64,000 bases of DNA from Opitutales bacterium (GTDB lineage: Bacteria; Verrucomicrobiota; Verrucomicrobiia; Opitutales; UBA953): positions 1-64,000 of the forward strand of contig JAGBIL010000036.1 of assembly GCA_017935025.1 (NCBI GenBank), given 5' to 3'. Both the position numbers and the translations under genes were made by a program. Below are positions 10,369-63,438 of the stretch, piece after piece (the first letter of the stretch is position 1; each line of letters begins with the position of its first letter). The notes under the pieces are model-generated. The model had not been told where the DNA came from. It saw only the letters and a list, made by a program, of their open reading frames with translations, and did not search any database.

Positions 10369-10413
10369 CCGTTCCCGCGAAGTTTTTAACCTTTAAAAAT
10401 TTGTAAAAAACAA

Positions 10414-12885
10414 ATGGATACAACCGAACGTCTTTCTCCGACAAACATTACGGATATTATGCAGACCGCGTACATCGATTATTCGATGTCGGTCATTGTT
10501 TCCCGCGCGCTTCCCGATGCGCGCGACGGCTTGAAACCGGTCCAGCGCCGCGTGCTTTACGCGATGCTGCGCGAAGGACTGCGCCACAACACGGCTTACG
10601 ACAAATGCGCCGGCGTTGTCGGGGAAGTTCTGAAAAACTACCACCCGCACGGCGACATCTCTGTTTACGACACGCTCGTGCGCCTCACGCAGGATTGGGT
10701 GATGCGCTATCCGCTTGTGGACGGGCAGGGCAACTTCGGCTCAATCGAAGGCGACTCGGCGGCGGCTTACCGTTACACCGAGTGCCGACTGCAGGAACTT
10801 TCTGAAGATTTGTTGCGCGATATTGACGAAGACACCGTCGATTTTCATCCGAACTACAAAGAGTCCACAACGGAACCGAGTGTGCTCCCGAGTGCGCTCC
10901 CGAACCTGCTTCTGAACGGTTCGACCGGAATCGCCGTCGGCATGGCGACGAATATTCCGCCGCACAATCTCGGAGAACTCGTCGAAGTTTGCTGCCGCCT
11001 CATCGACAACCCGATGCTTTCTTTCGACGAAATCGAAGAAATTATCAAAGGTCCGGACTTTCCGACCGGCGGTTGCATCTGCGGAACGGACGGCATTAAA
11101 CAATATCTGCGCACGGGGCGCGGGATCGTGAAAGTTCGCGGGATCGCGCACATCGAAGAAATCAAAAACGGTTTTGAACAAATCGTTATCACGGAAATTC
11201 CGTACAACGTGAACCGCGAAGCGCTCGTGAAACGCATTGCGGAACTCGTGAACGACAAGGTGCTTCCGGAAGTGCGCGACCTGCGCAACGAATCCGACGC
11301 GAACACGCGTATTGTGATTGAGCTCAAGCGCGGCGAATCCGAACGTGTCGTGATGAACAAACTTTACAAGCACACGGCGCTCGAGTCCTCGTTCGGAGCG
11401 ATTTTGCTCGCGCTCGACCACACGCGCCCGAAGCAGATGAACATCCGCGAAATGCTCGAATGTTTCATCGAGCACCGCCGCGACGTTATCACGCGCCGCA
11501 CGCGTTTCCGTCTGCGCAAAGCCGAAGCCCGCGCGCACATACTCGAAGGTTTCAAAATCGCGTATCGTAACCTCGATGATTTTGTCCATACCATCCGTTC
11601 CTCGAAGGATCGTGACGAAGCCGCGCAAAAGCTCATGTCGAAATACGGCTTGTCCGAAATTCAGGTCAAAGCGATTCTCGATATGCGTCTGTACCAGCTC
11701 ACAGGCTTGGAAATCGACAAGATTGAAGCGGAATATATCGAGCTCATGGGCTACATTGACGAATGCCGCGAAATTCTTTCCAACGAGAAGAAGTTGCTCG
11801 ACCTCGTGAAAACGGAATTGCGTGCGATGGGCGAAAAATACGCGTCCCCGCGCAAAACGGAAATCCGTCCGGCGGAAGGCGAATTCCGTCCGGAAGACGT
11901 TATTCCGAACGAAGGCTGCATGATTTCCGTTTCGCACGAAGGCTTCATCAAGCGGACATCGCTTGATCTTTATCGCACGCAGAAACGCGGCGGCAAGGGA
12001 CTTATCGGCTCTGAAACGCACAACGAAGATTTCATTGAGTATCTTTTCTCCGCGAAAACGCACGATACCATCATGTTCTTCACGAACAAAGGTCGCGTTT
12101 ACGTTCAGAAAGCCTACGAAATCCCGGAAGGTTCCCGCACGTCGAAGGGGCGCTCCATCGTGAACGTCATCGAAATGCAGGAAGGCGAAAAACTCGCCAC
12201 GCTCCTTTGCATCCCGGAATTTACCGACACGAAAAACGTCTTCTTCTGCACGAAAAACGGTGTGGTTAAGAAAACGACGCTTTCCGAGTACAAAAACTGC
12301 AACCGCCGCGGCATCATCGCCATCAATCTCCGCGAGGGCGACGATCTCATTTCCGTCAAACTTACGAGCGGGCACGATCAGGTCATCCTCGTTACGGAAC
12401 ATGGTATGACGATTCGTTTTGACGAAACTGACGCACGCAATCTCGGGCGATCCGCTGCCGGTGTGACAGGTATGAAACTCCGCGAAGGCGATACGGTTGT
12501 CGCGATGGAAGTTGTCGATCCCGCGTGCACGCTTCTCATTGCCGGGAAAAACGGTATCGGCAAGCGCACACAGTATGATGACGAAGAAGGCGAAGTCTTC
12601 CGCAAGCAGAATCGCGGCGGCGTCGGAGTCATCGGCATCAAAAACAAATCCGGTGTCGCGGGAGCGCTCAGCGTCCTCGATTCCGACCAGGTGATGCTTC
12701 TGACGAGGGGCGGGCAGGCGATCCGTATGCCGGTTAAGGGCATTCGCCGCACGGGTCGCGCCGCGCAAGGCGTGAAGCTCATGGACATTGACACCAAGGC
12801 GGGCGAAGAAGTTATCGGTATCTGCAAGGTCATTGTCGGCGATGATGAATCCGATGCTACGCCGTCGATTCCGCCCGCAGGATAA
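10414..12885 (+). CDS. gyrA: DNA gyrase subunit A, Ile at the Ser83 position
   Basis: GyrA cuts and rejoins DNA in the gyrase tetramer. The catalytic Tyr is residue 121 in RYTECR (E. coli Tyr122). The gyrase signature QKRGGKG (GyrA box, needed for DNA wrapping) lies near residues 523-529, and six-bladed wrapping-domain repeats follow, so this is gyrase and not topoisomerase IV. The length of 823 residues is normal. In the quinolone pocket the sequence is HPHGDISVYD: E. coli Ser83 is Ile82 here and Asp87 is Asp86. Substitutions at Ser83 are the classic cause of fluoroquinolone resistance, so low susceptibility is expected. It is followed by a strong terminator built of the iterated motif. Confidence 0.96.
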   Translation: MDTTERLSPTNITDIMQTAYIDYSMSVIVSRALPDARDGLKPVQRRVLYAMLREGLRHNTAYDKCAGVVGEVLKNYHPHGDISVYDTLVRLTQDWVMRYPLVDGQGNFGSIEGDSAAAYRYTECRLQELSEDLLRDIDEDTVDFHPNYKESTTEPSVLPSALPNLLLNGSTGIAVGMATNIPPHNLGELVEVCCRLIDNPMLSFDEIEEIIKGPDFPTGGCICGTDGIKQYLRTGRGIVKVRGIAHIEEIKNGFEQIVITEIPYNVNREALVKRIAELVNDKVLPEVRDLRNESDANTRIVIELKRGESERVVMNKLYKHTALESSFGAILLALDHTRPKQMNIREMLECFIEHRRDVITRRTRFRLRKAEARAHILEGFKIAYRNLDDFVHTIRSSKDRDEAAQKLMSKYGLSEIQVKAILDMRLYQLTGLEIDKIEAEYIELMGYIDECREILSNEKKLLDLVKTELRAMGEKYASPRKTEIRPAEGEFRPEDVIPNEGCMISVSHEGFIKRTSLDLYRTQKRGGKGLIGSETHNEDFIEYLFSAKTHDTIMFFTNKGRVYVQKAYEIPEGSRTSKGRSIVNVIEMQEGEKLATLLCIPEFTDTKNVFFCTKNGVVKKTTLSEYKNCNRRGIIAINLREGDDLISVKLTSGHDQVILVTEHGMTIRFDETDARNLGRSAAGVTGMKLREGDTVVAMEVVDPACTLLIAGKNGIGKRTQYDDEEGEVFRKQNRGGVGVIGIKNKSGVAGALSVLDSDQVMLLTRGGQAIRMPVKGIRRTGRAAQGVKLMDIDTKAGEEVIGICKVIVGDDESDATPSIPPAG

Positions 12886-12911
12886 TTTTTCTGCGAAGTC
12901 CGAAAAAGAAG

Positions 12912-12954
12912 AAAAGCGTTCCCGTGGGAAAATCCCTACGGGAACGCTTTTTTT
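12912..12954 (+). terminator. Rho-independent terminator after gyrA, made of an inverted pair of the iterated motif
   Basis: A perfect 14-base stem (12912-12925 with 12938-12951) encloses a 12-base loop and is followed by a T run. Each arm contains one full copy of the iterated word: GCGTTCCCGT on the left and ACGGGAACGC on the right. The A run on the left would make it work in both directions. Confidence 0.88.
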
Positions 12955-13039: not shown

Positions 13040-13480
13040 ATGACAGAAGAAGTATTACAAGCCATTCCGCACCGTCCGCCGTTTTTGTTCGTTGACAAGG
13101 TGATTGAAACCCGCGAGGACGGTATTGTGTGTTCCCGCACGTTTCGTGCCGACGAAAAGTTTTACGAAGGGCATTACCCGAACGCGCCGCTCACGCCGGG
13201 CGTTTTGCTCTGCGAAAGCGTTTTTCAGGCGGCGGCAATTTATCTGGTGAAAAAAGCGCAGGCAAGCGGCGATGCGGATTTTGCAAGCCGTACACCCGTG
13301 CTTTGCCGCATCGAAAATGCAAAGTTTAAAGGTATGGTGTTCCCGGGCGACGAAGTCATTATTGACGTGAAAGACAGCGAAACGCTCGCCGGATTTTATT
13401 ATCTTTCTGCAAACGTCAAATGTAAGGGCAAGACGGTTCTTCAAATCAAATTCGCCCTCGCCATGATCGAAAAGAAATAA
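13040..13480 (+). CDS. fabZ: 3-hydroxyacyl-ACP dehydratase FabZ
   Basis: FabZ removes water from 3-hydroxyacyl-ACP in each turn of fatty acid elongation. The protein of 146 residues has the single hot-dog fold with the catalytic His45 in GHYPNAPLTPG and Glu59 in LLCESVFQ. It lacks the C-terminal block that marks FabA. I chose the ATG at 13040 because reading further upstream would run through the gyrA terminator and into gyrA. fabI follows on the same strand after 84 bases, so the last two steps of the elongation cycle are encoded together. Confidence 0.92.
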   Translation: MTEEVLQAIPHRPPFLFVDKVIETREDGIVCSRTFRADEKFYEGHYPNAPLTPGVLLCESVFQAAAIYLVKKAQASGDADFASRTPVLCRIENAKFKGMVFPGDEVIIDVKDSETLAGFYYLSANVKCKGKTVLQIKFALAMIEKK

Positions 13481-18389: not shown

Positions 18390-18430
18390 TCCGGTTTTAT
18401 AAAGGGCGGTTCCGCTTTCTGCGGGAACAC

Positions 18431-18459
18431 AAAAAATCCCGTGTGTTGACACGGGATTC
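18431..18459 (-). terminator. Terminator of the tRNA-Gly gene
   Basis: On the minus strand, arms AATCCCGTGT and ACACGGGATT enclose a four-base loop and are followed by a run of T, eight bases after the tRNA-Gly CCA end. It would also hold back read-through from hprK on the other strand less efficiently. Confidence 0.85.
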
Positions 18460-18466
18460 AGGAAAG

Positions 18467-18542
18467 TGGAGCGGGCGAGCGGGTTCGAACCGCCAACATC
18501 CACCTTGGCAAGGTGGTACTCTACCAATTGAGCTACGCCCGC
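18467..18542 (-). tRNA. tRNA-Gly (GCC)
   Basis: On the minus strand the acceptor arms GCGGGCG/CGCCCGC pair. The anticodon arm CCACC/GGTGG holds the loop TTGCCAA with anticodon GCC, the T loop TTCGAAC is standard, and the CCA end is encoded. Confidence 0.96.
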
Positions 18543-49343: not shown

Positions 49344-49926
49344 TATGCGAAACCTTCCTCGCTTCGGAAACATTGGCACATTCAGCTCACCCGGAAAAAA
49401 TCTCCTGAGCGCATCATTCGCCAATCCGTTTGAATAAAGTTCCTGTGCATTACCTCTCCCTGCCTTTTTTTAATGTCTACGTTTTTTGTAGATATTTTGC
49501 TTGCTTTGATTTCCCGCTTTTGAGAGAGTTTATTTACGAAATTGATAACGAACACAAACGCGGTTTGCTGGCGTGTCAATTTCTCTACTAAACAAAACTC
49601 AGTTGAAAGTGTTCCTTATCAGCTTTTGTAGATTTACAAGAGCCAACCTTTGAGGGGTACCGGATTTTTGAGGTGTTCGGTATCTCTTATCATTGATGTA
49701 TTAAGTAATAGTTATGGTTACCTTCCCGCAGGATTATCCTGCGGGAAGGGTTTTTTACCGGAACGCGGTTTGGGGAGCGTTCACAATAAAAGCGGCATCA
49801 AATAGCTTTTTTTTTCTACAGAACGGAAAGTCTCGTTTCAAAACGGAGTAATCCATGAAAGATTGTTTTTGATCTTTCCGGCACGATCGATTAAAGATCA
49901 GGACTCATCTTAAAAACTACTAATAA
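49344..49926 (+). other. 583-base intergenic region with a possible structured RNA before the PEP-CTERM gene
   Basis: No gene is convincing here. The base composition is lower in G+C than in flanking genes. A weak hairpin GGTACCG/CGGTATC lies at about 49658-49686, a very strong terminator-like hairpin at 49721-49756, and a GATCTTT/AAAGATC hairpin at about 49872-49892. The PEP-CTERM gene follows with no Shine-Dalgarno sequence. The terminator has no gene in front of it on its strand, so it may end a small RNA or act as an attenuator for the gene behind. Confidence 0.45.
49721..49756 (+). terminator. Orphan terminator hairpin upstream of the PEP-CTERM gene
   Basis: A perfect 13-base stem CCTTCCCGCAGGA/TCCTGCGGGAAGG with a three-base loop is followed by TTTTTT. 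Its arms hold the near-motif TTCCCGC/GCGGGAA. No gene ends just before it. Confidence 0.8.
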
Positions 49927-55363: not shown

Positions 55364-55449
55364 TTCGGAGGAATTAGAAATCAGAAATTAGGAATGAGAA
55401 AAGCAGTGTCCTTTCTAATTCCTCATTCCCAATTTCTAATTTTTTTATC
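55364..55449. repeat. AT-rich TAATTCC/TTTCTAATT dispersed repeat, copy 3
   Basis: This spacer between tadA and the beta-CASP gene carries AATTAGAAATCAGAAATTAG and then the complementary-type words CTAATTCCTCATTCCC, TTTCTAATTT, so it can fold on itself. It belongs to the same family as 36436 and 37257. Confidence 0.7.
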
Positions 55450-62953: not shown

Positions 62954-63438
62954 CCGCAACGAGCGCGGGAACGCACGAAGTTTTTTTGGGGTTTATCCAC
63001 GAATTTACACAAATTTCACGGATTTTGTCATGGAGGACAGCCGTCTCGGCTGTCCTTTTTTCTTTTGTCCTTGCAGGACAAAGCGACATGGTTCCACGCT
63101 TCGCTTACTTGTCGCTTCCGTGGGGTAGACGAAGTTTTTTAGAACCACGGGATGCACAGAACCCACGGAATTATTTTCAATGCAAAGCACGCAAAGTTTT
63201 TTAAGAACAGAGAAAGAATCTGATTTCCAATTCATAATTTTTCAAAAAAGGTAAAAACACGCACTGAAAGCGCAACAAGACCATAGCCCGGGGCAAGCGA
63301 GCGATATGCCTTTTTGCGCTTTCTCCGCTTGCTTTTGTTGTGCCGGGTGGAGAAAATTCAATTGATTCCGGTTTTGTTTTTGGTATGACTTTTTAGGTAG
63401 CAATTAACCCCAAGTCATCATCTTTCATTGAACCTGTT
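62954..63438. repeat. 485-base intergenic repeat region before the ankyrin lipoprotein
   Basis: I see no gene. Contents: at 63000-63058 a segment that is the reverse complement of the one at about 247-300, including a GGACAGCC/GGCTGTCC inverted repeat and a following T run; a CCACGG-rich part to 63200; and a second inverted repeat GAAAGCGCAA/TTGCGCTTTC at 63266-63323 with a further GCAAGCG/CGCTTGC pair. The lipoprotein gene follows after A/T-rich sequence. Confidence 0.65.

Follow-up and report, generated by a model that had tools for sequence, protein, structure and literature searches.

A hairpin downstream of gyrA in an Opitutales genome carries the same asymmetric 8-mer, a word iterated throughout the genome, complete in each of its two arms. 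The DNA analysed (64,000 nucleotides, hereafter the window) comes from contig C10 of a genome of 2.03 Mb that is 98% complete. The gyrA gene (10414..12885, plus strand; TIGR01063 (NCBIfam)/NF004043) has its stop at 12885, and the first copy of the word, CGTTCCCG, starts 32 bases downstream. The sequence 3' of the gene, AAAAGCGTTCCCGTGGGAAAATCCCTACGGGAACGCTTTTTTT, is predicted to form a hairpin at 12909..12954 (plus strand) with a 20-bp stem and a 6-nt loop. As the earlier note had described, both arms hold the complete word: the 5' arm at 12917..12924 on the plus strand (GCGTTCCCGT including flanks), and the 3' arm at 12939..12946 on the minus strand, where the plus strand reads CGGGAACG inside ACGGGAACGC. 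An A-tract, AAAA (12912..12915), would serve as the T tail of the minus strand, and seven T residues (12948..12954) as the U tail of the plus strand. The RNA hairpin has a folding energy of -33.2 kcal/mol (z = -8.2 against dinucleotide shuffles, none of 200 being as stable). With its GC-rich stable stem, its T run and its position just past the stop codon, it has the features of an intrinsic terminator, and from its sequence the word-pair hairpin is very likely a bidirectional one. The next gene is FabA/FabZ-like (13040..13480, plus strand; PF07977). A simple terminator scanner did not call the site, probably because it treats the T run as part of the stem, and an Rfam search with the hairpin gave no family match.

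The word is very abundant. The window has 164 copies of CGTTCCCG (8.1 +/- 2.9 expected), and 450.6 kb of the source genome have 1227 (74 expected under a second-order model); the density across the 2.03 Mb is ~2.7 per kb. About 27% of this genome was read base by base, supplemented by whole-genome pattern counts; all genomes compared are MAGs. In the 450.6 kb, the word is as dense in coding (2.72 per kb) as in intergenic DNA (2.75 per kb), and 1019 of the 1227 copies are situated within genes, most of them single. CGTTCCCG differs from its own complement and hence is not a palindrome. Its 3' flank is constrained, with Y at +1 in 89% of copies and T at +2 in 6% versus 20%, and its 5' flank is almost free, which gives CGTTCCCGYR as the complete consensus. 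The longest word-free stretch, 4.1 kb (L092, 14249-18349), is a row of small genes on one strand, which we presume may be a ribosomal protein operon; gyrA likewise lacks the word across 2.5 kb (word gap 10369-12916).

The word is limited to one genus, that of Candidatus Spyradosoma. The 9-mer GCGTTCCCG is present in 2300-3500 copies in six of the eight genus members and in 567 and 213 copies in the other two, and is at background level in 49 genomes from sister genera and families. Two species, G001 and G006, are word-poor, with 0.66 and 0.32 words per kb. Relatives with 94-98% GyrA protein identity are mostly ruminant-gut MAGs labelled Opitutales or Verrucomicrobia; the GyrA of Candidatus Spyradosoma merdigallinarum, from a chicken-gut lineage, is 83% identical.

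A word this frequent will sometimes fall near its complement, and pairs could arise in this way by chance or base composition. Pairs were defined as CGTTCCCG..CGGGAACG (plus-minus order) with a gap of 0-40 in 450.6 kb of the source genome, and words were re-dealt at random 300 times within the coding or intergenic DNA of each segment. Intergenic plus-minus pairs number 28 against 5.1 +/- 2.0 expected (5.5-fold; the largest of the 300 shuffles gave 11), whereas minus-plus pairs are not enriched (4 against 5.4), and plus-plus and minus-minus pairs number 8 and 2 with ~5 expected. Placement, based on gene calls from a small purpose-written caller, follows gene ends: among 30 non-coding plus-minus pairs, 10 lie in convergent regions (of which there are 30), 15 in tandem regions and 5 at contig or segment ends, and the 42 divergent regions contain none. 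A/T tails accompany the pairs at gene ends. Inverted pairs are thus commoner at gene ends than word density predicts, and the check proposed in the earlier note came out in favour of its reading. Within coding DNA, plus-minus pairs are no more frequent than chance predicts (14 against 25.6 expected), as an accidental origin would allow, but the intergenic excess in one order only, its link to gene ends and the sharing of one word by species of 51 to 63% GC leave that origin a negligible probability. In whole-genome counts with gaps of 4-24, the source genome has 151 plus-minus, 49 minus-plus, and 63 and 67 plus-plus and minus-minus pairs; plus-minus exceeds minus-plus by 205 to 72 in G003 and by 157 to 48 in G007.

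Predicted terminators point in the same direction. The 5' arm contains the word in 29 of 135 in the source genome and in 39 of 89 in G003, G005 and G007 together, so that word-using terminators make up 21-44% in four word-rich genomes; none of 21 predicted terminators of sister genera has the word in this arm. Terminators in the reverse, minus-plus order number 0 in the source genome, 1 in the three relatives and 0 in the sister genera. On these sequence features, the hairpins very likely terminate transcription. A family of duplicated terminators or REP-like elements, with the single words as debris, might account for some loops that are alike (GAGGAAAATCC). Such an origin is highly improbable, as most words are single and within genes (1019/1227), loops and outer flanks of the pairs vary between loci, and single words are retained at orthologous positions in different species. 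At the gyrA site itself, word-pair hairpins with different loops are also present in L004 and L006.

Two further hairpins of the window had been compared to the gyrA site. The hairpin at 49721..49749 (plus strand), described as having near-motif arms, does so: CCTTCCCG and CGGGAAGG are each one base off the word, in plus-minus order and followed by a T tail. The pair reported after hprK is present at 18405..18428 as GGTTCCGC..GCGGGAAC, an imperfect half-pair, but it does not look like a terminator because it is imperfect and has a T tail on neither strand. A minus-strand tRNA-Gly (GCC) gene, probably terminated by the hairpin at 18435-18458, is situated just past hprK (18467-18542). Other repeats also occur in this genome. 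A second recurrent gene-end hairpin, GGACAGCCG..CGGCTGTCC, is present at 249-269 and 63032-63058 of the window, and GGACAGCCG has 21 copies in the sampled intergenic DNA against 0.4 expected. Intergenic repeats of the TGAATAATGAATAGTGAATAACGAATA type and AGGAATGAG hairpins, at 55387-55433 of the window and at other intergenic loci, are strongly over-represented.

The preference for plus-minus order is explained in part. A general stem preference was rejected, since the non-word terminators of the source genome favour G-rich 5' arms (53:13), the opposite arrangement. An A-rich 5' extension, as in Neisseria, was also rejected, because words in coding DNA lack such a flank. Of 54 arms, all but 3 have the 3' YR extension within the hairpin. 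Plus-minus order keeps YR inside the hairpin, and a T tail immediately following the word would disrupt this extension; both considerations help to explain the bias, only partially, because a minus-plus stem could include YR too.

Comparison between species shows that the word is actively conserved. Aligned word sites (257 words) are intact in 83% of cases in G005/L004, against 48% of control 8-mers matched to the word in composition (odds ratio 5.3, p = 3e-29). The corresponding values are 77% versus 27% in G003 and 67% versus 13% in the most distant species, G004; further word-rich comparisons gave 67% versus 25% and 60% versus 29%. The flanks are slightly less conserved than average, and the same pattern of a conserved word in less conserved flanks has been described for the DUS of Neisseria (Treangen 2008, PMC2397512). 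In the word-poor species, only 5% (G001) and 7% (G006) of word sites are intact. These two are sisters inside the genus (94.8/88 support) in a tree built from joined ComEC, DprA and pilus proteins; gyrA alone left the genus tree unresolved. Both main clades of the genus include word-rich species, with the single word-poor pair nested within, implying that the word arose before the genus split, with a later loss.

What remains in the word-poor sisters is largely paired. G001 has 73 plus-minus and 7 minus-plus pairs, with ~5 expected from density alone, and G006 has 15 and 1 (expected counts for these two genomes being simple density products). All 8 intergenic plus-minus pairs sampled in G001 are at gene ends, and 14 of its 57 predicted terminators still use the word. 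The survival of paired copies suggests that the hairpins are kept for termination. At the gyrA site of L003, a word-poor genome record, the hairpin is GCGTTCACG..CGTGTGAACGC: matching changes have removed the word from both arms and left the hairpin intact. The sequence comparisons so point to two forces, one that would spread the word and another, pairing for termination, that would retain it at gene ends. A search for altered forms of the word among sister genera and word-poor species found no true dialect, only erosion. The top words of G008, G011 and G025 proved to be repeats in coding DNA that lie mainly on one strand; GTTGGTGG, the candidate from G006/L005, was rejected because it sits in 17-18-bp minisatellites. 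G006/L005 (L106-L110, L144-L148, L005) contains many short tandem arrays with a 17-18-bp unit including GGGTTGGTGGTG, together with C runs; the GGGTTGGTGGTG arrays of G006 are not among the top words of the sampled word-rich species.

The force that spreads the word is likely to be sequence-specific DNA uptake. In order bias, in conservation of the word amid permissive flanks and in its share of terminators, the system agrees point for point with uptake sequences. The role is put no more firmly than this because no ComEA was found, and because sister genera have ComEC, DprA and pilins without the word. ComEC (a short form), DprA and type IV pilins are present in all eight species, as is a gene cluster for two PilB-like ATPases, a PilT-like ATPase and a PilC-like protein. 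A stand-alone ComEA was not found, strong PF12836 (HHH_3) matches being limited to ORFs of ~820 amino acids that we read as Tex-like. ComEC, DprA and the pilins are intact in the word-poor species and sister genera as well, indicating that the machinery does not co-vary with the word. Each word-rich genome has seven pilin-like genes, none of which stood out as a ComP-like receptor candidate; a basic pilin was considered as receptor and dropped, its high pI having come from the leader, with a near-neutral mature protein. The product of a single pilin gene with word pairs nearby (L083, 8836-9671) is near neutral in word-rich species and acidic (net -11) in G006. The word-poor G001 and G006 have 10-11 pilin-like genes versus 7 in word-rich species. 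Extra GspE-like ATPase and pseudopilin genes in G001 (C66, C36) and G006 (C75, C62; L142, L145) suggest a type II secretion system that is missing from word-rich species.

Two other roles for the word have to be weighed. A Chi-like recombination or replication signal could likewise be an asymmetric 8-mer that is common in coding DNA, and within segments the two strands carry unequal numbers of copies (chi-square p = 1e-9). This bias tracks gene strand (rho -0.56, p = 0.003) rather than GC skew (rho -0.28, p = 0.16), and overall the strands are balanced, with 730 plus and 721 minus copies. Moreover, we know of no Chi sites that form terminators, and such a role seems quite unlikely. Iteration for a reason other than uptake, with the pairs still co-opted as terminators, is a possibility we regard with more doubt than favour. 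It would resemble HIP1, which is associated with orphan DNA methyltransferases and demonstrates that massive iteration does not of itself make a word an uptake signal (PMC4390886), and it would suit the high density here, one word per 250-400 bp, and the negative ComEA search. HIP1 is palindromic, however, and CGTTCCCG is not. Two methylase families were searched: the word-rich G004 lacks PF02384 methylases, and PF01555 matches, 1-4 per genome, have no pattern that fits the word.

We consider it probable, from the sequence evidence, that this Opitutales genus has an uptake-sequence-like word system whose plus-minus pairs have been co-opted as terminators. CGTTCCCG (CGTTCCCGYR) would be its self-recognition word: word-bearing DNA from relatives would be preferentially taken up and recombined, keeping the density at 2.7-4 copies per kb, and selection for transformability may maintain it instead or in addition. 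With the word and its complement ubiquitous, close plus-minus pairs would supply ready-made stem-loops at gene ends, which an A-tract and a T-tract would turn into bidirectional intrinsic terminators. The gyrA terminator would then be one among about 150 close plus-minus pairs in the genome. A density 2- to 4-fold above that of Neisseria and Haemophilus counts against uptake. According to a published statement, only two families, both within the Proteobacteria, are known to have uptake words (PMC12616744), and a literature search for such words in Verrucomicrobia(ota) found nothing. On balance, we favour a third, independent origin of self-recognition by an uptake word, in a phylum (Verrucomicrobiota) for which no such word has been reported, with terminator co-option parallel to that in Neisseria and Haemophilus and with one sister pair in which the pressure has stopped and terminators alone keep the word. 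If true, an unrelated word with the same terminator habit would make the link between uptake words and terminators a general consequence of word iteration. The word-poor sisters would be a natural experiment in which single words decay and gene-end pairs persist, separating the two forces and making the force that maintains such words directly testable. It would further suggest that uncultured gut Opitutales undergo natural transformation.

The likeness to Neisseria and Haemophilus drawn in the earlier note holds for the dispersed asymmetric word, its balanced strands, and the favoured plus-minus pairs with A/T tails at gene ends. Cyanobacterial HIP1 (PMC4390886) is also very dense, genome-wide and lineage-restricted. 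It is palindromic and tied to methylases, whereas the Opitutales word is asymmetric and makes terminators only when two copies face each other, and no methylase pattern matched it in the PF02384 and PF01555 searches. The 9-mer USS of Pasteurellaceae (AAGTGCGGT) is iterated, with many single copies inside genes, and is carried by 16-29% of terminators (PMC1852404); its sequence is unrelated, and its plus-minus bias is weak (50:25), unlike the strong bias in Opitutales. The DUS of Neisseria (GCCGTCTGAA) belongs to another phylum and is also unrelated to CGTTCCCGYR. The Opitutales word is two- to three-fold denser and extends 3' (YR), without 5' A residues. The Neisseria receptor is ComP, whereas in Opitutales the ComEA search was negative and no pilin was singled out. 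On the other hand, the DUS is likewise an asymmetric word iterated on both strands, with A/T-tailed plus-minus pairs at tail-to-tail and tail-to-head gene ends (PMC1852404; Frye 2013, PMC3630211). Its order bias is strong, with 226 plus-minus and 5 minus-plus pairs in N. meningitidis (Kingsford 2007, PMC1852404), compared with 29:0 in the source genome and 39:1 in its relatives. Published word shares of terminators are 16-57% (PMC1852404) and up to 22% and 37% (PMC13020248), and the Opitutales word shares with the DUS both a large part in terminators and better conservation than its surroundings.
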